DNA of 64,000 nt, from the NCBI GenBank assembly GCA_019637355.1, contig JAHBVT010000001.1:992001-1056000 (forward strand), in the 5' to 3' direction. Position numbers and translations under genes: made by a program. Below the pieces are notes generated by a model that ran no database searches, was not told the origin of the DNA, and saw only the letters and a list, made by a program, of their open reading frames with translations. This stretch comes from Gemmatimonadaceae bacterium (GTDB lineage: Bacteria > Gemmatimonadota > Gemmatimonadetes > Gemmatimonadales > Gemmatimonadaceae). Positions 22,599 to 34,881 of the stretch are shown here, piece by piece (the first letter of the stretch is position 1; each line of letters begins with the position of its first letter).

Positions 22599-23501
22599 CT
22601 ACTTCGCGCCCGTCTCCGCCGGCGCCACCGTCTGCAGGTACTTCCAGATCGCCGTCATTTCCACCGGCGTCATCAGCTTGGTGGCCTGCACCGGCATCAC
22701 GGGATTGATGGCCGAACCGTCCGGGCGCGTACCGTCCGTGAGCGCCTTGACGAAGGCTGGATAGTCGTAGGCGGCCAGTCCGGTCGGCGTGAGGTTGGAT
22801 GCCTGCGGCCAGCCCGGCGGCGCACCGGAGATCGGGCCGCCGCTGTAGTTCGCGCCGTGGCAGCCAGAGCAGCCGCCTGCGGCCAAGTAGCGACCGTACT
22901 CGACGGTCGAGTCAGCGGGCACCGACGCCACCACATCCGTGGTGTGCGTGACCGCGTCGGCGGGGAACAGCGGCATCTTCCCGGCGGCGTAGAGGGCGCG
23001 CGCCACCGGACCGATGCGCATCGGGGGCGTCTCGCGGTCCACCGGGGCGACGGTGCGCAGGTAGGCGATGAGCGTGCCGACGTCCTCGTCCGAGAGCAGT
23101 TGGTACTCGTGCGAGGGCATAATGACGAGGCGGCGGCCGTCAGCCGCGACGCCGTGTCGGATGGCGCGTTCGAGGTCGGCATCGCTCATCTTGGCGAGCA
23201 GTCCGCCGCGTCCGGCGGTGATGTTGGGACCCGAGATGCGGCCGATGGGGAAGTTGTCGAGCAGCGTGAGGCCGCCGTAGTCCTCGCCGTGGCAATCGGC
23301 GCACTTGGCCAGCGCCTTCATCACGTGCTCGCCGCGGGCAACAGACGCGGAGTCGGTGGGTGCGACGAACGCGTGTGTGGCAGGCGGAACAGTCGCGTTC
23401 AGCTGCGCGTTGGACCACGTGTACAGACCGGTGACGCCAAGCAGGATCGCCACCGCGAAGATCGCCGCCGCGAGGCGTACGACCCGGAAAATCCGATTCA
23501 C
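22599..23501 (-). CDS. dihaem c-type cytochrome, membrane-anchored
   Basis: A 300-residue protein with one N-terminal membrane anchor (about residues 8-28) and two cytochrome c domains. Haem motifs are CADCH in the first domain and CSGCH in the second. Likely distal methionines lie in VIMPSHEY and PVMPVQATKLM. It would carry electrons on the periplasmic face, but its partner is unknown. The start is GTG at 23501 with AGGAG upstream. It is divergent from the Mrp operon over 145 bp, where an inverted repeat lies. Confidence 0.9.
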   Translation of the reverse strand: MNRIFRVVRLAAAIFAVAILLGVTGLYTWSNAQLNATVPPATHAFVAPTDSASVARGEHVMKALAKCADCHGEDYGGLTLLDNFPIGRISGPNITAGRGGLLAKMSDADLERAIRHGVAADGRRLVIMPSHEYQLLSDEDVGTLIAYLRTVAPVDRETPPMRIGPVARALYAAGKMPLFPADAVTHTTDVVASVPADSTVEYGRYLAAGGCSGCHGANYSGGPISGAPPGWPQASNLTPTGLAAYDYPAFVKALTDGTRPDGSAINPVMPVQATKLMTPVEMTAIWKYLQTVAPAETGAK

Positions 23502-23545
23502 ACAATACTCCTGTCAGGGGGTGCGGCAAACCTACGGCCGCCCCA

Positions 23546-23572
23546 CCGGACAGGTTACAAGCCTCTGTCCGG
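23546..23572. promoter_or_regulatory. inverted repeat in the cytochrome c / mrp divergent region
   Basis: CCGGACAG (23546-23553) is repeated in inverse as CTGTCCGG (23565-23572) around an 11-base spacer, 45 bases upstream of the cytochrome gene and 75 bases before mrpE. It could be an operator shared by both units or a hairpin in one leader. No regulator is suggested by the sequence. Confidence 0.45.
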
Positions 23573-23646
23573 GCACTAGGTTTGAGAAGCCATCGAACGC
23601 GGCCGCGTCCGCATCCGTCCCCCATCACGACCGTGGAGCTCGCTCG

Positions 23647-24132
23647 ATGACCCTCGGACAGCGGCTATACGCCAACGCGCTGTACGCCGCGGCCCTCCTG
23701 GCCGTCTGGTACATCCTTTCCGGTAAGGCTGACCTCGTGCACTTGGGCACCGGGGCCCTGGCCGTCATCGCCATCGCCGCGACCATCGTGCCGGTAGAGG
23801 ACGGTACGCGCATCCGCTGGTTGCGCGTGATGCTGTTCCTGCCCTGGCTACTCAAGGAAGTCATCGCCTCCAACCTGCACGTGGCGCGCGTCGTGCTCAC
23901 CTGGCGCTCGCGCGTCAGCCCGCGCCTGCTGCAGCTCGATCCCCCGCTGCGCTCGCCGCGGGCCCGCGCCGTGCTCGGGATCGCCGCCACGCTCACACCC
24001 GGCAGTCTCACGGTGGACGTGGACGAGCAGACGATGCAGGTGCACGCCCTCGACGACGTCTCCGCCCAGGATGCCACGGACGGCGAGATGATGCGGCGCG
24101 TCGCCGAGCTCTTCGAGGAGTCGGCCCCGTGA
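23647..24132 (+). CDS. mrpE: Na+/H+ antiporter subunit MrpE/MnhE
   Basis: A 161-residue subunit of the multi-subunit Mrp antiporter. N-terminal helices (ALYAAALLAVWYILSG, LGTGALAVIAIAATIVPV) are followed by the family motif LPWLLKEVIASNLHVARVVL and the cytoplasmic part ANTLTPGSLT-like AATLTPGSLTVDVDEQ. First gene of a nine-gene unit; its stop overlaps mrpF by GTGA. It is needed for assembly of Mrp in studied systems. Confidence 0.9.
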   Translation: MTLGQRLYANALYAAALLAVWYILSGKADLVHLGTGALAVIAIAATIVPVEDGTRIRWLRVMLFLPWLLKEVIASNLHVARVVLTWRSRVSPRLLQLDPPLRSPRARAVLGIAATLTPGSLTVDVDEQTMQVHALDDVSAQDATDGEMMRRVAELFEESAP

Positions 24133-24401
24133 GGCAGGTCTTCCTCGTCGCCCTGGTGCTGTTGCTCGCGCTGCTCCTGCCGTTCCTCGTGCGCGTGATC
24201 CGCGGGCCGTCGATCTTCGATCGCGTGGTGGCGCTCAACGGGCTCGGGACCGTGGTGCCGGTGATGCTCGTGCTCATCGGCCTGCTCTACGGCGCCGTCG
24301 AGCTCTACGTGGACATCGCGCTGGCCCTCTTCCTGCTCAACCTCTTCACGACGCTGCTCATCGCGCACTACGTGCGCCGCGGACGCGGGGCGGACGCGTG
24401 A
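24129..24401 (+). CDS. mrpF: Na+/H+ antiporter subunit MrpF/MnhF
   Basis: A 90-residue membrane protein with three helices. The motif VIRGPSIFDRVVALNGLGT (residues 25-43) is characteristic of MrpF. A further helix (VELYVDIALALFLLNLFTTL) follows. GTG start in a GTGA overlap with mrpE, and its end overlaps mrpG in the same way. Confidence 0.9.
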   Translation: MRQVFLVALVLLLALLLPFLVRVIRGPSIFDRVVALNGLGTVVPVMLVLIGLLYGAVELYVDIALALFLLNLFTTLLIAHYVRRGRGADA

Positions 24402-24700
24402 GCGTACTCGACATCCTCGCCACGGCCTCCATCGCCATCGGGCTGTTCTTCCTGCTCGTGGGCGCGATGGGCATCCTCCGCCTGCCGGACCTCTTCTCGC
24501 GCCTGCACGTGACCGGTGTGCTCGACACGCTGGCGGTCCCGATGATCTTGGTCGGCGTGGCGCTGCACCTGGGGCTGCGACTGGTCTCGGTGAAGCTCGT
24601 GCTGGCGACGATCTTCCTCGCGGTCACGAGTCCGCTCGTGGGCCACCTGCTCGCGCGCGCGGCGCTTGAGGCGGGCGAGAAGCCGGCCCGCCAGGACTGA
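24398..24700 (+). CDS. mrpG: Na+/H+ antiporter subunit MrpG/MnhG
   Basis: A 100-residue protein with three helices and the family core GAMGILRLPDLFSRLHVTGV (residues 22-41). GTG start overlapping mrpF. The last residues are charged (AGEKPARQD). It is separated by two bases from the next gene. Confidence 0.9.
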   Translation: MSVLDILATASIAIGLFFLLVGAMGILRLPDLFSRLHVTGVLDTLAVPMILVGVALHLGLRLVSVKLVLATIFLAVTSPLVGHLLARAALEAGEKPARQD

Positions 24701-24702
24701 CC

Positions 24703-25230
24703 GTGCTCATCTACGTCGCCGAAGTCCTCAGCCTGCTCGTCGCCGTGGTGGCCATCGCGCTCCTCGGCGTACGGCATCTGCTCACATCGGTGGTCCTGCT
24801 CTCGGTACTCAGCGCCGCGCTCGCGCTCACCTTCGCCATCCTCGGCGCCGTCAGCGTGGCCTTCTTGGAAGCCGTGGTCGGCACGAGCATCTCCACGATC
24901 TTCTTTATGGGCCTGATGCGCTGGGTGGATCCCTCGCAGCTCACGCGCAAGAGTCTTGGCGACCGCCTGCGCGCCGCGGTGCCGGCGCTCGGCCTGGGCG
25001 CGGTGCTGATGTACGGCATCAACGCCCTCCCGCGCTTCGGCAATCCGGCGGCGCCGGCGACGCAGCACGTCAGCCCCTACTACGCCGCCAATAGCGTCGC
25101 CGATATGGCCTCGCCGAACGTCGTCGGCGCGATCCTCGCGGACTACCGCGGCTTCGATACGATGATCGAGGCGGCGGTCGTCGTCACGGCCGTGCTCGCC
25201 TGCCTCCTCGTGCTCCGGCAGCGCGTATGA
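24703..25230 (+). CDS. MrpA C-terminal-like subunit (DUF4040/MbhD-MbhE type)
   Basis: A 175-residue membrane protein. The first part (residues 1-75: VVLLSVLSAALALTFAILGA, then AFLEAVVGTSISTIFFMGLM) matches the DUF4040 segment, which in classical Mrp is the C-terminal part of MrpA. The second part (helix near 85-105, loop, then helix 150-175) resembles MbhE. So the tail of MrpA is a stand-alone gene, as in archaeal Mrp/Mbh loci. GTG start at 24703; its end overlaps the next gene. Confidence 0.82.
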   Translation: MLIYVAEVLSLLVAVVAIALLGVRHLLTSVVLLSVLSAALALTFAILGAVSVAFLEAVVGTSISTIFFMGLMRWVDPSQLTRKSLGDRLRAAVPALGLGAVLMYGINALPRFGNPAAPATQHVSPYYAANSVADMASPNVVGAILADYRGFDTMIEAAVVVTAVLACLLVLRQRV

Positions 25231-25667
25231 TGCGGCCCTTCAATTCCCTGATGCTGCGCCTGCTGATGGCGCTGCTGCGCGGCGCCATCCAGCTCTTCGG
25301 TGTGTACGTGTTGCTGCACGGGCACTATGCGCCTGGCGGCGGCTTCGTGGCGGGGGCGCTGTTTGCCGCCGCGATGATCCTGCCGCGGCTCACGCGCGGC
25401 ACCGCCGATGACGCGCTGACGCTCTCGCCGCGCGGAGCGCTCGTGCTCTCGGCGACGGGTATCCTGCTCTTTGCACTGGTCGCGGCCGTGCCACTGGCCC
25501 TAGGCGGACCCTTGCTCGACTTCGGCACGCTGCCGCTCGCCGACACCCTCGCCGAGCGCCGCTCGCTTGCCGCGCTGCTCATCGAGACCGGCGTGGCGAT
25601 GGCGGTCGCCGGCGCGATGCTGTCGATCTTCCTCTCGCTCACCGCCGAGGAGGGCAAGACCGCGTGA
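25227..25667 (+). CDS. mrpB: Na+/H+ antiporter subunit MrpB/MnhB
   Basis: A 146-residue protein with four helices. The motif YVLLHGHYAPGGGFVAGALF (residues 27-46) is the hallmark of MnhB. The C-terminal helix (IETGVAMAVAGAMLSIFLSL) follows. ATG start overlapping the stop of the previous gene (ATGA) and a GTGATG junction into mrpC. Confidence 0.9.
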   Translation: MMRPFNSLMLRLLMALLRGAIQLFGVYVLLHGHYAPGGGFVAGALFAAAMILPRLTRGTADDALTLSPRGALVLSATGILLFALVAAVPLALGGPLLDFGTLPLADTLAERRSLAALLIETGVAMAVAGAMLSIFLSLTAEEGKTA

Positions 25668-26014
25668 TGGACTACCTCGTCGGCCGGGGGCCCCTGTTGC
25701 TCTTCGTGGTGCTCGCCTGCCTGGGCGTGTACCTGATGATGAGCGAGCGCAACCTCTTCAAGGCCGTTGTCGGGCTGTACCTCTTCCAGACCGGCGTCAT
25801 CGTGCTGTTCATCGCGATGGGCTTCCGCAGCGACGGCACGATCCCCTTCGCCGCCGAAGGCCGCGTGATGCACAACGCCTTGCCCCACGCAATGATGCTC
25901 ACGGCCATCGTCGTCGGCATCGCGACCATCGGCGTCGCCATCGCGATCCTCCGGCGCATCCAAGCGGAGTTCGGCAGCATCGAGGAAGGCGGGGCGGGGG
26001 ACGAGGGCGCGTGA
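25664..26014 (+). CDS. mrpC: Na+/H+ antiporter subunit MrpC/MnhC (NuoK-like)
   Basis: A 116-residue protein with three helices, homologous to NuoK of complex I. The family core is LACLGVYLMMSERNLFKAVVGL (residues 17-38), and the last helix ends ILRRIQAEFGSIEE. Start is GTG at 25664 or the ATG right after it. It overlaps its neighbours at both ends. Confidence 0.9.
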   Translation: MMDYLVGRGPLLLFVVLACLGVYLMMSERNLFKAVVGLYLFQTGVIVLFIAMGFRSDGTIPFAAEGRVMHNALPHAMMLTAIVVGIATIGVAIAILRRIQAEFGSIEEGGAGDEGA

Positions 26015-27486
26015 GCCAGTCGCTGCCGGCGCTGCTTTTCTTCATCCCCTTCGTCGCGGCGCTGGTGGTCACGGCGCTCGCGCCGTTCGCACCCCGCGCC
26101 GCCCGGCCGCTCGGTATCGTCGCCTTGCTGGGGAGCACGCTCGCCGCGGTCGTCGGTTGGCAGCGTGTGCTTTCGGACGGCACGCTGCGGACCAGCCTCG
26201 GAGGATGGGCGGCGCCGCTGGGCATCGAGCTGGCCCTCGATCCGCTCTCCGCGTTGATGGCCGTGCTCGTACTCGGCACCGCGTCCATCGTGCTCGCGGC
26301 CACCGGCGCCTGCCTGCGCGAGGAGTTTGCCGGCCGCGAACCGTTCTTCGTCGCGCTGGCGCTGTTGCTGGTGGCCGGCCTCACGGGCATCGTCGTCACC
26401 GGCGACCTCTTCAACCTGTTCGTGCATCTCGAGGTCGCGAGCCTCAGTGCCTACGCCTTGGTTGCCGCCGGCGATCGCGGTGCGCCGCGCGCTGGCTTGC
26501 GCTACCTGCTCATCGGCAGCTTCGGCGCCTCGCTGTTCCTAGCGGGCATCGGGTTCATCTACGGCGGCACCGGCACGCTGAATATGGCTGACGTCGCCGA
26601 GCGCATCGGCAGTGCGGACCCGCGCCTGGTGCGCGTCGGCGGCCTGCTGATGGTGACGGGCCTCGCCGTGAAGATGGGCCTGTACCCGCTGCATCTCTGG
26701 ATGCCGTCGGCGTACGCGCGCGGTCCCATCTCCTCGGCCGCCTTGATGGCGCCGCTGGTCACGAAGGTCTCCGCGTATGCGTTGCTGCGCGTGCTGTTCT
26801 GGACCTTCGGGCTGGGGTTGGCGGTCGGGGACTTGCCGCTGGCGGAAGCGACGGCCTGGCTCGGCGCCGCAGCGGTGGTCGCCGGCGGCGCGATGGCCTT
26901 CGTGCAGACCGACCTGCGCCGCCTGCTCGCGTACTCCAGCGTCGGGCAGATCGGCATCGTCGCACTGGGCATCGGGCTTGCCGATGTACCCGGCCTCACC
27001 GGTGCGGTCCTGCACATCACGAGCGATGCCATCGTGAAGGCGGCACTGTTCCTCGCCGCCGGGACGGTCGCGTTGCGCCTCGGCATCACCGAGGTGGCAG
27101 AGCTGCATCGTCTGCGCGGGCGAGCGCCGATTACCAGCGCGGTGCTCGCCATCGGTGGGCTCTCGCTCGTGGGCATTCCGCCGCTGGCCGGCTTCTTCGG
27201 CAAGTGGTACGTGCTGAACGCCGCGCTGGCCGAGGGCCGCTGGGCCTTCGTCGCGGCACTGGTCTTCGGGAGTCTCGCGAGCATCGGCTACGTGTTCCGG
27301 ATGATCGAGCGGCTGTACTTCGTGCCCTCGCCGCTGGTGGCGGACGATCCCTCGCACGAGGGCCGCGGCGGGCTGGTGCTGGCGAGTGCGCTGTTCATCG
27401 TCGCTACCATCGCGCTCGGGCTCGGCAACGCCTGGCTGGTGGAGTACGCCGTCGTGCCGGCATTGCCGATGGCGGTGCTGCCGTGA
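26011..27486 (+). CDS. mrpD: Na+/H+ antiporter subunit MrpD (NuoN/L-like), first copy
   Basis: A 491-residue proton-conducting subunit with about 14 helices. Key features are the glutamate in NLFVHLEVASLSAYAL (TM5), the lysine in KMGLYPLHLWMPSAYARGP (TM7) and the histidine region VLHITSDAIVKAALFLAAG. GTG start in a GTGA overlap with mrpC, and the same junction leads to the next gene. Among the three large subunits here, it is closest to canonical MrpD. Confidence 0.9.
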   Translation: MSQSLPALLFFIPFVAALVVTALAPFAPRAARPLGIVALLGSTLAAVVGWQRVLSDGTLRTSLGGWAAPLGIELALDPLSALMAVLVLGTASIVLAATGACLREEFAGREPFFVALALLLVAGLTGIVVTGDLFNLFVHLEVASLSAYALVAAGDRGAPRAGLRYLLIGSFGASLFLAGIGFIYGGTGTLNMADVAERIGSADPRLVRVGGLLMVTGLAVKMGLYPLHLWMPSAYARGPISSAALMAPLVTKVSAYALLRVLFWTFGLGLAVGDLPLAEATAWLGAAAVVAGGAMAFVQTDLRRLLAYSSVGQIGIVALGIGLADVPGLTGAVLHITSDAIVKAALFLAAGTVALRLGITEVAELHRLRGRAPITSAVLAIGGLSLVGIPPLAGFFGKWYVLNAALAEGRWAFVAALVFGSLASIGYVFRMIERLYFVPSPLVADDPSHEGRGGLVLASALFIVATIALGLGNAWLVEYAVVPALPMAVLP

Positions 27487-28961
27487 GCCCGGGCACGCTG
27501 AGCCTCGTCGCGCTGGCCGCGCCTGTCGCGGCCGGCGTGGCGGCGCTGGTGGTGCCGCGCAAGCTCGCCGGATGGGTGGCGTTCCCGGCCGCAGCGGTGG
27601 CGGTGTGGGCCGTGGCGGGCGTGCTTCGCGCGGTGCTGGGCGGCGTGGCGGTCGAGCAGCAGTTGCTTGGGCTCACGCCGACGCTGCCGTTGGCCTTCCG
27701 CGTGGACGCACTCGGCGTCACGTTCGCGATGCTGGCCGCGGGGTTGTGGTTGGTCGCGAGCGTCTATGCCGCTGGCTACGCCGAGGCGACCAAGCTCAAG
27801 CACCCGCGCCGCTTCTTTGCGGCCTTCGCGGTATCGATCGCCTGCGCGACGGGCGTCGCCTTTGCCGCCGACCTGCTGACGTTCTTCGTGTTCTATGAAC
27901 TGCTGACCGTCGCGACGTACCCGCTGGTGGTGCATCAGGAGACGGCTCGTGCCTACGCGGCAGGTCGGCGCTATCTGTTGTTTGCGCTCGGCGGCGGGCT
28001 CGCTTTGCTGGTCGCGGTGATCTGGACCTGGCAGGCGACCGGAGCGCTGGCGTTCCGCGCCGGCGGGATGCTCGCCGGCAGCGAGGTGGCGACCAGCGCG
28101 GCGTTGCTCGCGCTCTTCTTGCTCGGCGTGGCGGTGAAGGCGGCAGTGATGCCGCTGCACGCCTGGCTGCCGGGCGCGATGGTCGCGCCGACGCCGGTCT
28201 CGGCGTTGCTGCACGCCGTGGCGGTGGTGAAGGCCGGCGTGTTCGGCCTGTTGCGCGTCGTCGGCTTCGTGTTCGGGCCGGACGCGTTCATCGCGACGGG
28301 CGGGCGCACGGCGTTGATGGCGGCGGCGTTGCTCACCATCGTCGCCGGGTCGGTCATCGCGCTCCGGCAGGAGCATCTCAAGCGCCGGCTCGCGTATTCG
28401 ACCATCGTGCATCTCTCGTACATCGCGCTCGGGGCGGCACTGGCCACGCCGGCGGCCTTCGCGGGCGCGACCGTGCATCTCGTGAACCACGGCTTGGCCA
28501 AGATCACGCTGTTCTTCGCCGCCGGCTCCATCTACGCCGCCACCAAGGCCGAGGGCATCGGCGAACTCGCCGGCCTCGGCCGCCGGATGCCGTGGACCTT
28601 CGGCGCGTTCACGGTCGCCGCGATCGCGTTGATGGGCATCCCCGGCCTCGCGGGCTTCCCCGGCAAGCTGCTCCTCGCGCGCGGCGCGGTCGAGGCCGAC
28701 GCCGTGCTCGCGCTCTTCGTGTTGCTCGGCGCGTCCATCTTCACCGCGGCGTACCTGCTGCCGATCCTGCGCATCGCCTACTTCCCTGACGCCGAGCGCA
28801 TCGGGGCGCAGGCGCAGGTCGAGTCACGCTGGCCGCTGGTGCTGCCGTTGGTGCTGACCGCGGTGGCGACCGTGCTCTTCGGCTGGTGGGCACCGGCGTT
28901 GGCGGTGCAGTCGGCGCTGGCCGATGCGGCGGCGCAAGCCGTGTTCGGGGTGGGCCAATGA
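27483..28961 (+). CDS. second MrpD/NuoL-like proton-translocating subunit
   Basis: A 492-residue antiporter-like subunit. Conserved points are the glutamate in FFVFYELLTVATYPLVV, the lysine in VKAAVMPLHAWLPGAMVAPTP and the lysine/histidine segment ATVHLVNHGLAKITLFFAAG. It differs clearly from the first copy, so it is an old paralogue rather than a fresh duplicate. GTG start overlapping the previous stop; ATGA overlap with the next gene. Confidence 0.88.
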   Translation: MSPGTLSLVALAAPVAAGVAALVVPRKLAGWVAFPAAAVAVWAVAGVLRAVLGGVAVEQQLLGLTPTLPLAFRVDALGVTFAMLAAGLWLVASVYAAGYAEATKLKHPRRFFAAFAVSIACATGVAFAADLLTFFVFYELLTVATYPLVVHQETARAYAAGRRYLLFALGGGLALLVAVIWTWQATGALAFRAGGMLAGSEVATSAALLALFLLGVAVKAAVMPLHAWLPGAMVAPTPVSALLHAVAVVKAGVFGLLRVVGFVFGPDAFIATGGRTALMAAALLTIVAGSVIALRQEHLKRRLAYSTIVHLSYIALGAALATPAAFAGATVHLVNHGLAKITLFFAAGSIYAATKAEGIGELAGLGRRMPWTFGAFTVAAIALMGIPGLAGFPGKLLLARGAVEADAVLALFVLLGASIFTAAYLLPILRIAYFPDAERIGAQAQVESRWPLVLPLVLTAVATVLFGWWAPALAVQSALADAAAQAVFGVGQ

Positions 28962-30646
28962 CGTCGGTGGTGATGCATCCAGCGCTGCCGTTCGCCGCCG
29001 TGGCATTGGCCAGCCTCGTGCTGCCGCTGCGCGCACAGCGCATCGCGATGTTGCTGGCGTCGGCGCTCGCCCTCTGGATGCTCACGCTGCTGGCCGATGG
29101 CGCGGTCACCTCGGTGATGCTGCACGGACACGACTGGGTGCTGCTGTCGATGGACGGGCTCTCGCGCGCCTTCGCGATCGCCTTCGCCGCCTACGGCGGC
29201 ATCGCGGCGCTCTTTGCCTGGAGCGACGAGGAGCGCGGAGGTGTGCGTGCACAGGCGGCGCTGGTTGCGGGCGGGCTGCTCGTCGTGCTCGCGGGCGACT
29301 TGCTCACGGTGTTCGTCGGCTGGGAATGGCTGACCGTCGCGTCGCTGTTCTTGGTCTGGCAGGGCCGCACGCCGGACTCCTGGGATGCCGGCCTACGCTA
29401 CGTCGCCCTGCACTTCGTGGGCGCGACGCTGTTTCTCGCCGGCATCCTGCTGCGCGCGCCCGTGGCCGGAACGGGGCTCGAGGGCCTCGCCGACGGCAGC
29501 ACGGCCAGCACGTTGATCCTCCTCGGCGTGCTCGTGAACGCGGCGATGCCGCCGCTGCACGCCTGGCTGCCGGATGCGTACCCGCGGGCGAGTATCTTCG
29601 GGACGGTGTTCCTGGCGGCCTTCACGACCAAGGCGGCGGTGTATGTGCTGGCGCGTGGCTTCGCCGGCGCTGAGGTCCTCGTGTACGTCGGCACCGGGAT
29701 GACGCTCGTTGGCGTGACCTTCGCATTGTTGCAGGACGAGCTGCGCCGCCTGCTGGCCTACCATATCGTGAGCCAGGTGGGCTATATGGTGGCTGGCGTC
29801 GGCCTCGGGACGGCGCTGGCGCTCAACGGCACTACCTCGCACGCCGTGGCCCACATCTTCTATAAGGGGCTGCTGCTGATGGGAGCGGGGGCCGTGCTGC
29901 ACGCCACCGGACGCGAGCGGCTCTCGGAACTCGGCGCGCTCGGGCCCCGCCTACGACTCGTCGCGCTGCTGACCGTCATCGGCGCGGCGTCAATCTCCGG
30001 CGTGCCGCTGCTCAATGGCTTCGTGAGCAAGAGTATGATTGTCTCGGCGGCCGGCTACGCGGACCGCGGCGTCATCGCGGCGCTGCTGCATCTCGCCGCC
30101 GCGGGGACGTTCCTCAGCGTGGGCCTCAAGCTCCCGTGGTTCGCCTTTGCGGGAGAGGACCACGGAGCGGACGTGGAGCGCCCCGTGCCACGCTCGATGC
30201 TGCTCGCGATGGCCCTGGCGGCGGCGGTCTGCGTCGTCACTGGCGTGATGCCCGGATCCACGCTCTACGCCTTGCTGCCCTTTGCCGCGACGTACGCGCC
30301 GTTCACGCTCGGTCACTTCGTGGAATCGGCAGCCCTGCTCGGCGTGACGGCGGTGGTGTTCTGGGTCGCGCGGCGCTGGCTGGCGCCGTCGGCCAAGGAC
30401 ATCCCCGACGTGGATCTGCTCTACCGGAAGCCGCTCGGCGCGCTGGTGGACGGGCTGGGCCGGGTGGCCGAGGGGCTGGGGCGCCGCAGCGGCTGGTCCA
30501 GCGAGATCGGCCTCGCCCTGCTGTGGCGGCGGCTGGAGCGCTACGGCGAGGCGCACCGGAACCCGACCGTCGCCGTGCAGACCACGGCCATCGTCGCGGT
30601 GCTGGTGGCGCTGGCGGTGGTGGCCGGCATCAGCGCGCGCGGCTGA
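28958..30646 (+). CDS. third MrpD/NuoL-like proton-translocating subunit
   Basis: A 562-residue antiporter-like subunit. TM5 reads VFVGWEWLTVASLFLVWQG, where the channel glutamate is kept as WEW. The TM7-8 region is AAMPPLHAWLPDAYPRASI. Alternating His-Lys positions appear in SHAVAHIFYKGLLLMGAGAV. The C-terminal tail has DIPDVDLLYRKPLG and a final helix near residue 540, an extension seen in the larger MrpA-like or MrpD-like subunits of Mbh/Mrp relatives. It closes the operon, 40 bases before speA. Confidence 0.87.
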   Translation: MTSVVMHPALPFAAVALASLVLPLRAQRIAMLLASALALWMLTLLADGAVTSVMLHGHDWVLLSMDGLSRAFAIAFAAYGGIAALFAWSDEERGGVRAQAALVAGGLLVVLAGDLLTVFVGWEWLTVASLFLVWQGRTPDSWDAGLRYVALHFVGATLFLAGILLRAPVAGTGLEGLADGSTASTLILLGVLVNAAMPPLHAWLPDAYPRASIFGTVFLAAFTTKAAVYVLARGFAGAEVLVYVGTGMTLVGVTFALLQDELRRLLAYHIVSQVGYMVAGVGLGTALALNGTTSHAVAHIFYKGLLLMGAGAVLHATGRERLSELGALGPRLRLVALLTVIGAASISGVPLLNGFVSKSMIVSAAGYADRGVIAALLHLAAAGTFLSVGLKLPWFAFAGEDHGADVERPVPRSMLLAMALAAAVCVVTGVMPGSTLYALLPFAATYAPFTLGHFVESAALLGVTAVVFWVARRWLAPSAKDIPDVDLLYRKPLGALVDGLGRVAEGLGRRSGWSSEIGLALLWRRLERYGEAHRNPTVAVQTTAIVAVLVALAVVAGISARG

Positions 30647-30674
30647 GCGAGTACCGCCGCCGCCCGGCAGTCCG

Positions 30675-30680
30675 TAACTT
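30675..30680 (+). promoter_or_regulatory. candidate -10 box (TAACTT) for speA
   Basis: TAACTT ends six bases before the speA ATG at 30687 and no Shine-Dalgarno is present. A transcript from it would begin at or next to the start codon, so the message would be leaderless. It lies in the short gap after the mrp operon. Confidence 0.4.
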
Positions 30681-30686
30681 TTCCGG

Positions 30687-32669
<1,983 letters not shown>

Positions 32670-32674
32670 TCGAG

Positions 32675-32695
32675 GCGGGCGAACGATTCGCCCGC
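32675..32695 (+). terminator. hairpin after speA
   Basis: GCGGGCGAA (32675-32683) and TTCGCCCGC (32687-32695) form a perfect 9-bp stem with a CGA loop, six bases after the speA stop. It lacks a U-tract, so its role as a terminator is only likely. Confidence 0.55.
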
Positions 32696-32703
32696 GATGC
32701 ACG

Positions 32704-32709
32704 TAAGTT
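32704..32709 (+). promoter_or_regulatory. candidate -10 box (TAAGTT) for the CPA2 antiporter gene
   Basis: TAAGTT follows the speA hairpin. A transcript from it would start near 32716, which favours the GTG at 32770 over the earlier in-frame TTG at 32713 as start codon. Confidence 0.35.
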
Positions 32710-32769
32710 GGATTGTGCGGCGCGGCGTCTCGCCGTCGCCACCTGATCGATTCCTCTCCCTCGGCACCC

Positions 32770-34059
32770 GTGCTTCCTGAATTTCACGCCCTCCTGGCCA
32801 ACGTCGGCCACGACGCTGGATTCGAACACCTGCTGTTGGTCCTCGTCGCCGTCATCGCGGCGACCAAGGCGCTCGGCGCCCTCGCCCAATGGATTGGCCA
32901 GCCCGCCGTGCTCGGTGAACTCGTCGCCGGCGTGCTGCTCGGGGCCAGCGTGCTCGGGATCTTCGATCCCAACGATCCCGTGCTCCACGCGATGGCCGAG
33001 CTCGGCGTCCTCATCCTGCTCTTCCAGATCGGCCTGCACACCGACCTGAAGTCGCTGACCAAGGTCGGTCCGACGGCGCTGGTGGCGGGCCTCGTAGGTG
33101 TCATTCTGCCGTTTGCTGGCGCCCTGGCCGTCACGTCGGCGATGGGGATCGCGCCGCTGCCCAGCGTCGTGATCGGGGCCGCGCTGACCGCGACATCCAT
33201 CGGCATCTCGGCCCGTGTGCTGTCCGACCTCGGCCAGCTCAAGACGCCCGAGGGTCAGGTCGTCATCGGCGCCGCCGTGTTCGATGACGTCGTCGGCCTG
33301 ATTATCCTCTCCATCGTCGCCAGTATGGTCGCCGGCGCCGACCTCACGCTCGGCGGTGTCGGGCTCACCGCGGGTGTGGCCATCGGCTTCATCGTCGTCG
33401 CGCTCGCGCTTGGCACGCTCACGATCCCGCCGCTGTTCCGGCTGGTCGAGCGAGTGCGCGTGTCCGGCACGCTGAGCACGGTGGCGCTGGGCTTCGCGCT
33501 GCTGCTGGCGCTGATGGCCACGCACGCCGGCTCGGCGATGATCATCGGTGCGTTCGCGGCCGGGCTCATCCTGCACCCGACGCCGCAACGGCACGAGATC
33601 GAGGAGAGCGCGACGCAGCTCGGCTTCTTCTTCGTGCCGATGTTCTTCGCGTCGGTCGGCGCCTCGGTGGACCTCTCGGCCCTGGTGACGCGTGAGGCCC
33701 TGCTCGTGGGCAGCCTGCTGATCGTCGTCGGCGTCGCCGGCAAGGTGCTCGCGGGCTTCGCGCCTTGGTGGTTCAAGGGCAACAAGCTGCTGGTCGGCGT
33801 GGCGCTGGTGCCGCGCGGTGAAGTGGGCCTGATCTTCGCGAAGCTCGGTCTCGCCTCCGGTGTGCTCAGTGGGCCCCGCTTCGGTGCGCTGATGCTGATG
33901 GTCGTCGTCACGACCTTCCTGACGCCGCCGATGCTGAACCTGATCGCCTCGCGGCGTGCGCCGGACGACGAGATGGCGCCCGACCACGTCGGCATCGACG
34001 ACCTCGTGGTCGGCAGCAGCAGCCGCAAGTCGCGGAAGCTGAAGAAGCTGCACGAATGA
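32770..34059 (+). CDS. CPA2-family cation:proton antiporter
   Basis: A 429-residue inner-membrane antiporter (Na+ or K+ for H+). The first helices contain IGQPAVLGELVAGVLLGASVLG, typical of KefB/NapA-like proteins. The paired-aspartate region is VIGAAVFDDVVGLIIL (about residues 165-180). A later helix holds GAFAAGLILHPTPQRHEIEE. The C-terminus stops after a basic tail (SSRKSRKLKKLHE) without an NAD-binding TrkA domain. The TGA stop is the first repeat unit of element 5 (GAATGAC). Confidence 0.88.
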   Translation: MLPEFHALLANVGHDAGFEHLLLVLVAVIAATKALGALAQWIGQPAVLGELVAGVLLGASVLGIFDPNDPVLHAMAELGVLILLFQIGLHTDLKSLTKVGPTALVAGLVGVILPFAGALAVTSAMGIAPLPSVVIGAALTATSIGISARVLSDLGQLKTPEGQVVIGAAVFDDVVGLIILSIVASMVAGADLTLGGVGLTAGVAIGFIVVALALGTLTIPPLFRLVERVRVSGTLSTVALGFALLLALMATHAGSAMIIGAFAAGLILHPTPQRHEIEESATQLGFFFVPMFFASVGASVDLSALVTREALLVGSLLIVVGVAGKVLAGFAPWWFKGNKLLVGVALVPRGEVGLIFAKLGLASGVLSGPRFGALMLMVVVTTFLTPPMLNLIASRRAPDDEMAPDHVGIDDLVVGSSSRKSRKLKKLHE

Positions 34060-34170
34060 CGGATGACTAATGACGGATGACGGATGACGAATGACGAATG
34101 ACGGATGACGAATGCTTGAACGGCGCGAGAACCGAAGTCTTCGCGCCGTTCACGCTTCCGTCATCCGTCC
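34054..34170. repeat. heptamer inverted-repeat element 5 (longest tandem arm)
   Basis: Eight consecutive 7-bp units (34054-34109) of GGATGAC, GAATGAC or TAATGAC, then a private 11-bp stem GAACGGCGCGA / TCGCGCCGTTC (34118-34128, 34141-34151) and a short right arm of GTCATCC type (34158-34170). It fills the gap between the convergent antiporter and superoxide dismutase genes. Confidence 0.92.
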
Positions 34171-34175
34171 GGAAG

Positions 34176-34784
34176 TCAGCGCGCCCCGTACCGCTTCGCG
34201 ACCTCGGCCCAGTTCACCACGTTCCACCACGCGTCGATGTAATCGGGCCGGCGGTTCTGGTACTTGAGGTAGTAGGCGTGCTCCCAGACGTCGAGGCCGA
34301 CGAGGGCGTGGCGGCCTTCCATCAGCGGGTTGTCCTGGTTGGGTGTGGACTCGATGCTGACGCTGCCGTCCTTGGCGGCCACCAGCCAGGCCCAGCCGGA
34401 GCCGAAGCGGCCGACCGCAGCGGCCTTGAAGGCGTCGCGGAACTTGCCGAAATCACCGAAGGCTTTGGTGATGGCGGCGCCGAGCGCGTCGCCGGGCTCG
34501 CCGCCGGCCTTGGGGGCCATCGTGGCCCAGAACAGCGAATGGTTCCAGTGGCCGCCGCCGTTGTTGCGCACGGCGCCGCGCACCGCCTCGGGTACCTTGG
34601 CGATATTGGCGCACAGGTCATCCAGCGACCACGAGGCGAGCTCCGGCGCCTTCTCGATCGCGGCGTTGAGGTTCGTCACGTAGGCGTTGTGGTGCTTGCC
34701 GTGGTGGATCTCCATCGTCTGCGCGTCGATGTGCGGCTCGAGCGCGTTGCTGGCATAGGGCAGGGCAGGAAGCGAATGGGCCAT
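34176..34784 (-). CDS. superoxide dismutase, Mn/Fe family
   Basis: A 202-residue cytosolic superoxide dismutase without a signal peptide. Metal ligands are visible as His27 (MEIHHGKHH), His82 ([11 protein letters not shown]), and the Asp and His in [12 protein letters not shown]. Gly77-Gly78 before HWNH and the GSGWAWLV block point to the manganese or cambialistic subgroup. ATG at 34784 was chosen because it begins the conserved [18 protein letters not shown]; an upstream in-frame start has no family support. A GATATATC element about 50 bases upstream may hold the -10 box. Confidence 0.95.
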
Positions 34785-34881
34785 CGGGGGACTCCGGATG
34801 AAGTGCGAGGAGACTGGCGAACTGACTCGTGCAAGATATATCCGCACGCGCGGCGTTACGCTCCCGCGAGCGGCGCCCGCG

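Follow-up and report, generated by a model that had tools for sequence, protein, structure and literature searches.

Group 3 Mrp antiporters are defined in PMC8415708 as those without mrpA and with one or more mrpD genes, and the Pyrococcus order given there is mrpEFGBB′CD, with a fused MbhD/MbhE gene. In ‘Ca. Nitrospira alkalitolerans’, two NuoM/NuoL-like genes lie behind mrpD of a group 3 Mrp locus and were read in PMC7784846 as extra mrpA/mrpD-like genes. In rhizobial green complex I, NuoL is replaced by two MrpD-like subunits, according to PMC9040806. Here, we describe a nine-gene operon from a Gemmatimonadaceae bacterium (GCA_019637355.1, contig JAHBVT010000001.1), found in a stretch of 64,000 nucleotides (positions 992,001 to 1,056,000; the window). 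The operon very probably encodes a monovalent cation/proton antiporter of Mrp group 3 (CPA3) and was gained by this species as one block. Its kind is already known from these papers.

The nine genes lie on the plus strand at 23647–30646 of the window, and neighbors overlap, mostly by four bases, or almost touch. From 5′ to 3′ the order is E-F-G-(MbhD+MbhE)-B-C-D1-D2-D3. The open reading frames (ORFs) and Pfam matches agree exactly with the gene order and coordinates of an initial annotation made from the DNA letters, and they bear out the E-F-G-first order and the separate MrpA-tail gene pointed out there. The Pfam gathering score was the threshold, and each of the nine proteins exceeds it. 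Residues called kept in the following list are equivalents of positions at which mutations have an effect in Bacillus Mrp (PMC5703873).

23647..24132, plus strand: MrpE, 161 residues; PF01899 (MNHE), 90 bits; T113/P114 kept
24129..24401, plus strand: MrpF, 90 residues; PF04066 (MrpF_PhaF), 36 bits; D32/R33 kept
24398..24700, plus strand: MrpG, 100 residues; PF03334 (PhaG_MnhG_YufB), 82 bits; P81 kept
24703..25230, plus strand: stand-alone MrpA tail of the MbhD+MbhE type, corresponding to transmembrane helices (TM) 17–21 of MrpA, 175 residues; PF13244 (MbhD), 39 bits, and PF20501 (MbhE), 35 bits; R773/E780 kept
25227..25667, plus strand: MrpB, 146 residues; PF04039 (MnhB), 79 bits; P37/F41 kept
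25664..26014, plus strand: MrpC, 116 residues; PF00420 (Oxidored_q2), 57 bits; T75 kept
26011..27486, plus strand: D1, MrpD/MbsH-like antiporter subunit, 491 residues; PF00361 (Proton_antipo_M), 191 bits
27483..28961, plus strand: D2, first of an MrpD-like pair, 492 residues; PF00361, 190 bits
28958..30646, plus strand: D3, second of the MrpD-like pair, 562 residues; PF00361, 129 bits; amphipathic (HL-like) stretch at the C terminus, then a last TM helix; Asn194 in place of the TM7 Lys
23439..30686, no strand: outer limits of the inserted block from blastn colinearity; about 170–410 bp connect the flanks at this site in four congeners

The locus has the gene content of a group 3 Mrp. E, F, G, B and C accompany at least one MrpD, there is no mrpA, and the large subunits are MrpD-type only, as in the definition of PMC8415708, in that none falls in the MrpA clade; D2 and D3 lie outside the MrpD clade too. 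The residues important on the Na+ side in Bacillus Mrp have intact equivalents across E, F, G, the tail, B and C, and cation/proton antiport is the most likely activity predicted for the operon. The first seven genes follow the order of the stand-alone Mrp of Pyrococcus furiosus (PMC8415708), with the fused MbhD-MbhE-type gene and no MrpA, but that system has one large subunit where the operon has three. By its description in PMC7784846, the Nitrospira locus is alike in having two extra antiporter-like genes behind mrpD, and it also contains bicA, nhaB and motB. Canonical Mrp of groups 1 and 2 (Bacillus, Anoxybacillus, Dietzia) share the E, F, G, B, C and tail parts and their key residues. In contrast, they have a fused MrpA with N domain and tail, an A-first order and two large subunits, whereas the tail here is a gene of its own. 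No MbhJ–N-like subunit, as in membrane-bound hydrogenase (MBH) or MBS, was found among the nine genes and seven flanking ORFs scanned. In rhizobial green complex I the MrpD-like pair stands with NuoM and NuoN (PMC9040806); here an arginine decarboxylase gene follows D3.

The three large subunits form three separate deep clades, with supports of 99%, 100% and 100% for D1, D2 and D3, in agreement with the claim of the initial annotation that they are three different proteins. D2 and D3 of the operon share their clades with the two MrpD-like subunits of rhizobial green complex I (PMC9040806). Among solved relatives, D1 scores highest against MbsH of Pyrococcus (230 bits), with lower scores for bacterial MrpD (189 and 173) and MbhH (182). 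This, together with a Glu of the tail protein at the MbsD position, upholds the archaeal, MBH-like character that had been suggested for the locus.

D3 departs from its neighbors in TM7. It has kept the Glu of TM5 and the Lys of TM8 and TM12, and the Lys of TM7 is replaced by Asn. From the alignment and from what we know of the family, we take MrpA K223 and MrpD K219 of Bacillus to be the TM7 lysines. The substitutions MrpA-K223A and MrpD-K219A each abolish antiport (PMC5703873). Since the residue replaced is essential in both proteins, proton conduction by D3 may depart from the usual mode or be lacking, and the claim that the locus encodes three proton channels, with an unusual ion stoichiometry as the consequence, is not established. 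The change is not peculiar to this genome. Asn is a trait of the entire D3 family (84 of 100 relatives), the remaining rows having Lys (15) or Ser (1), and TM5 Glu is present in all 100. Lys is kept at TM7 in D1 (53/53) and D2 (93/93) and, in a mixed alignment, in every MrpA, MrpD, NuoL and NuoN row and in 11 of 12 NuoM rows; MbsH has Glu. The TM7 Asn of D3 was not found described in the literature searched, which was mostly non-subscription, nor by keyword in the main text of PMC9040806. Asn is present in the D3 of rhizobial green complex I as well. All 15 D3 proteins with TM7 Lys come from Gemmatimonadota-type relatives; these are 15 of the 19 D3s of this type within the class (L040, L047, L055 and others), and nearly all other D3s have Asn, a distribution that could reflect reversal or separate retention.

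A second peculiarity concerns the junction of D2 and D3. In 93 of 93 relatives with a measurable gap, these genes are at least 180 bp apart (median 244; 7 of the 100 D3 rows gave no measurable gap, and a value of 2517 bp belongs to the second D3 of L132). The gap in relatives encodes a protein of 70–100 residues that probably forms two helices and ends in an ExYY motif at the C terminus. Four members scanned against Pfam and NCBIfam matched no family above cut-off. The operon has no two-helix ORF between D2 and D3. D2 and D3 overlap here by four bases, and a model of 24 members that detects the small gene in 11 of 11 controls gives no hit in this genome; the operon is thus the only case seen without it. 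A natural operon of this kind is a ready control for the role of the small protein. Elsewhere the small gene can be doubled: L132 (7809–9774) and L096 (12122–12331) have a second one behind the first, and L132 also has a second D3, possibly an Mrp with four large subunits.

It is tempting to propose, tentatively and at somewhat less than even chances, that D3 (MrpD2) is a distinct antiporter-like class that works without the TM7 lysine, an end module common to Mrp and green complex I that normally comes with the undescribed small partner, and that the operon holds a stripped version without it. In that case it would move fewer protons than the number of subunits implies, or another ion. Extra protons per turn have been credited to green complex I and to other complexes with added large subunits from the subunit count (PMC9040806). 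If a whole family of end subunits does without a residue that MrpA and MrpD cannot spare, proton bookkeeping by subunit count needs testing.

The predicted structure of D3, from an alignment of 45 rows, has the antiporter fold (pLDDT 88, pTM 0.87) with a C-terminal helix and a last membrane helix, these end parts being of low confidence. Its best structural matches are MrpA, MrpD and NuoL chains, with TM-scores on the query mostly of 0.70–0.79. Downstream of Tyr489, D3 of the operon has 74 residues, which equals the median of 19 Gemmatimonadota-type loci (range 71–95). The median is 98 (95–103) in 33 loci of green complex I, the system known from rhizobia, and 97 (58–110) in 14 unassigned loci. 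For 34 other Mrp loci it is 89.5 (23–280), a bin that, as in the residue comparison by context, takes in any locus with a D1-like ORF and so wrongly includes L111, whose ORF at 720 is unrelated and which is a locus of green complex I. The stretch of the operon is therefore about 24 residues shorter than the green complex I median, near the size of an insert, 26 residues long, that PMC9040806 reports for a complex having one additional large subunit. We considered this brace length as a ruler of subunit number, but other Mrp loci span both ranges and it is suggestive only.

Evidence that the operon arrived as a block comes from its nearest relatives. A search of 288 genomes of the taxonomic order found D3 in this genome only, and a search for MrpE gave matches in 10 of 179 family genomes, counting this one; the 16 other congeners searched had none. 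Immediately behind the operon lies speA, which is present in 16 of 17 genomes of the genus. In all four congeners examined, a cytochrome c gene adjoins speA, with about 170–410 bp between the aligned parts and the nine genes absent. The congener flanks are colinear with those of the operon at 68–88% DNA identity (blastn), and sequence like that upstream of speA in the congeners resumes right after the D3 stop codon. The operon thus separates the cytochrome c gene from speA as a clean insertion of 7 kb, and with the empty site in the congeners the transfer of this membrane machine of nine subunits is well defined. The native flank at 30687–34847, colinear in whole or part in the four congeners, encodes arginine decarboxylase, a PF00999 Na+/H+ exchanger and, on the minus strand, an Fe/Mn superoxide dismutase. 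In a tree of D1+D2+D3 (48 rows, without 11 near-duplicate Gemmatimonadota-type loci and loci lacking D1, D2 or D3, and with L111 included despite an invalid D1), the operon groups with loci of Acidobacteriota and Tectomicrobia, at 100% for the set of seven, apart from other loci of its class. We interpret the data as acquisition from a distant donor outside the sampled genomes.

The arrangement itself is widespread. A scan of named genomes with the D3 alignment gave at least 580 relatives, of which the best 80 loci were kept for counts of gene order. Sixteen of them show E-F-G-tail-B-C-D1-D2-(small)-D3 in full; by their record titles, these include loci of Spirochaetia, Clostridia, Dehalococcoidia, Bacteroidota, Verrucomicrobiota and a methanosarcinal archaeon. 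Another 14 have D1-D2-(small)-D3 with the remainder truncated or rearranged, 39 are of the type D2-(small)-D3-NuoM(-NuoN), whole or truncated, and 11 are other or cut; L111 was miscounted in these classes (as ‘12s3MN’) and belongs with the NuoM(-NuoN) type. Among loci from phylum-level relatives, the operon order recurs in 19 of 20, as counted with a simple ORF caller that overextended some starts, and the twentieth, L056, a weaker match, is a different cluster. Since the same order recurs in both samples, it is not due to chance. D3 matches at an E-value of about 2e-59 or better occur in 53 of 200 genomes of the phylum, this one included, the other 52 being in other families of the class. At 1e-60, 30 of 297 genomes in a set around an acidobacterial genome have a match, and 14 of these were retrieved. 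Mrp genes are also enriched in one order of Gemmatimonadota (PMC9426454). The view that the arrangement is unusual is weakened by this breadth and by similar loci in print (PMC7784846, PMC8415708, PMC5703873); what stays unusual is the insertion, the lone absence of the small gene and, as a trait of its whole family, the TM7 Asn of D3. Two variations stand beside these counts. L069, L096, L106 and L132 have the order E-B-F-G-tail-C-D1-D2-small-D3, and in nuo-like clusters (L107, L129, L123 and others) D2-(small)-D3 precedes NuoM and NuoN, so that the MrpD-like pair seems mobile as a cassette between Mrp and complex I.

Three other explanations of the locus can be weighed against these data. 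An ordinary bacterial Mrp whose MrpA was recently mutated into an N-terminal part, D2 or D3, and a tail gene is scarcely credible. The tail aligns with MrpA residues 636–798 of 7QRU, the D2 clade is weakly (86%) sister to MrpA+NuoL, and the D3 model resembles MrpA and NuoL. However, forcing the operon’s D3 or D2 with MrpA is rejected, by 143 log units (approximately unbiased (AU) test, p 2e-9) and 110 log units (AU p 9.5e-12), respectively. These tests used a 48-row subset of the 107-row tree and address solely whether the operon’s own protein joins MrpA; under the model used, they rule out a recent split for both. The gene order is different, a third large subunit is present, and the same separate genes are found across many phyla. 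The initial annotation, which spoke of a split MrpA, had itself named trees that show one large subunit to be an ordinary MrpA N-terminal part, split by a recent mutation, as the finding that would count against it; the trees give no such result for D3 or D2, and no MrpA N-terminal orthologue exists to have been split. It is also very unlikely that the nine genes supply the membrane portion of a complex driven by redox chemistry, similar to MBH/MBS or to complex I, whose electron module was lost or is encoded elsewhere. The kinship of D1 with MbsH, the place of D2-D3 instead of NuoL in green complex I (PMC9040806), the frequent D2-D3-NuoM-NuoN type, and a Moritella locus with NuoH/I/J-like ORFs before this set and NuoC/D/E/F/G-like ORFs after it (named by eye) would fit such a complex. 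Against it, all nine genes are non-redox, the full Mrp E/F/G/B/tail set is present, and the flanking cytochrome c gene is native and predates the insertion. By Pfam content, no other redox gene occurs among the nine genes or the scanned native flanks, and a redox module in this locus, which the third large subunit had been suggested to anchor, is therefore not supported. Retention of an ancestral operon in this genome, with loss everywhere else in the order and no horizontal gain, is unlikely too. Class relatives in families f5–f7 carry homologous operons (the 52 genomes above), but retention requires loss in 287 of 288 searched genomes of the order with clean repair of the site, and the operon does not group with the loci of most class relatives.

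The operon is, in our reading, a known kind of antiporter that was horizontally gained and has lost one part. Several observations weigh against parts of this reading. The branches of the operon’s subunits are long (0.89–1.29; 1.22 concatenated), so placement of the donor is unsure. No foreign base composition marks the transfer: the GC content of the operon is 67–72% and that of the flanks 67–69%, and the case for transfer therefore rests on distribution, the empty site and the tree. Within the family, G347 (L191) carries the first seven genes, E-F-G-tail-B-C-D1, as far as the end of a contig, so that this family is not entirely without operons of the kind. As to D3, the C-terminal brace is modelled at low confidence, with residues 513–545 below pLDDT 50, and brace lengths give no clean split of Mrp and green complex I.

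From the observed gene content, order, residues, phylogeny and insertion site, we infer the assembly, layout, ion, direction and stoichiometry of the complex as follows. By homology with Mrp, MBH and complex I, MrpE, MrpF and MrpG, the MbhD/E-type tail and MrpB would form the Na+ half. MrpC would link it to a row D1-D2-D3, the gene order corresponding to K-N-M-L of complex I. D3 would be the far end, its C-terminal helix bracing D2 and D1. The proton motive force would carry protons through D1 and D2, and this flow would power export of Na+ (or K+) through the E/F/G/tail half. With Asn for the TM7 Lys, D3 may conduct differently or may serve as a cap and brace.

The best NCBIfam models are PRK12504 for the tail, PRK12508 for B, PRK12662 (an MrpD model) for D1, PRK08375.1-1 for D2 and PRK12668 for D3. 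D3 is almost within a curated family, since it scores 554 bits against the PRK12668 cut-off of 564. A PF00361 search of the genome gave six proteins, D1, D2, D3 and one NuoL/M/N set about 0.4 Mb from the operon, and no further Mrp large subunit. A promoter scan found none, a result that carries no weight. The tail protein has Gly in place of Bacillus MrpA E687; its MbhD Glu is kept in 23 of the 26 relatives with a residue there, the other 32 of 58 rows being those in which the best-scoring ORF spans the second half only. MrpC has His at the Q70 position, as do 49 of 61 relatives. Another operon, E-F-G-x-B-C-D1-D2-third, is found in genus g21 of the same family (L192, 5210–6997, minus strand; L193, 8353–10251, plus strand). 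Its third large subunit has, by eye, Ala for the TM5 Glu and Asn for the TM8 Lys, and keeps the TM7 Lys.

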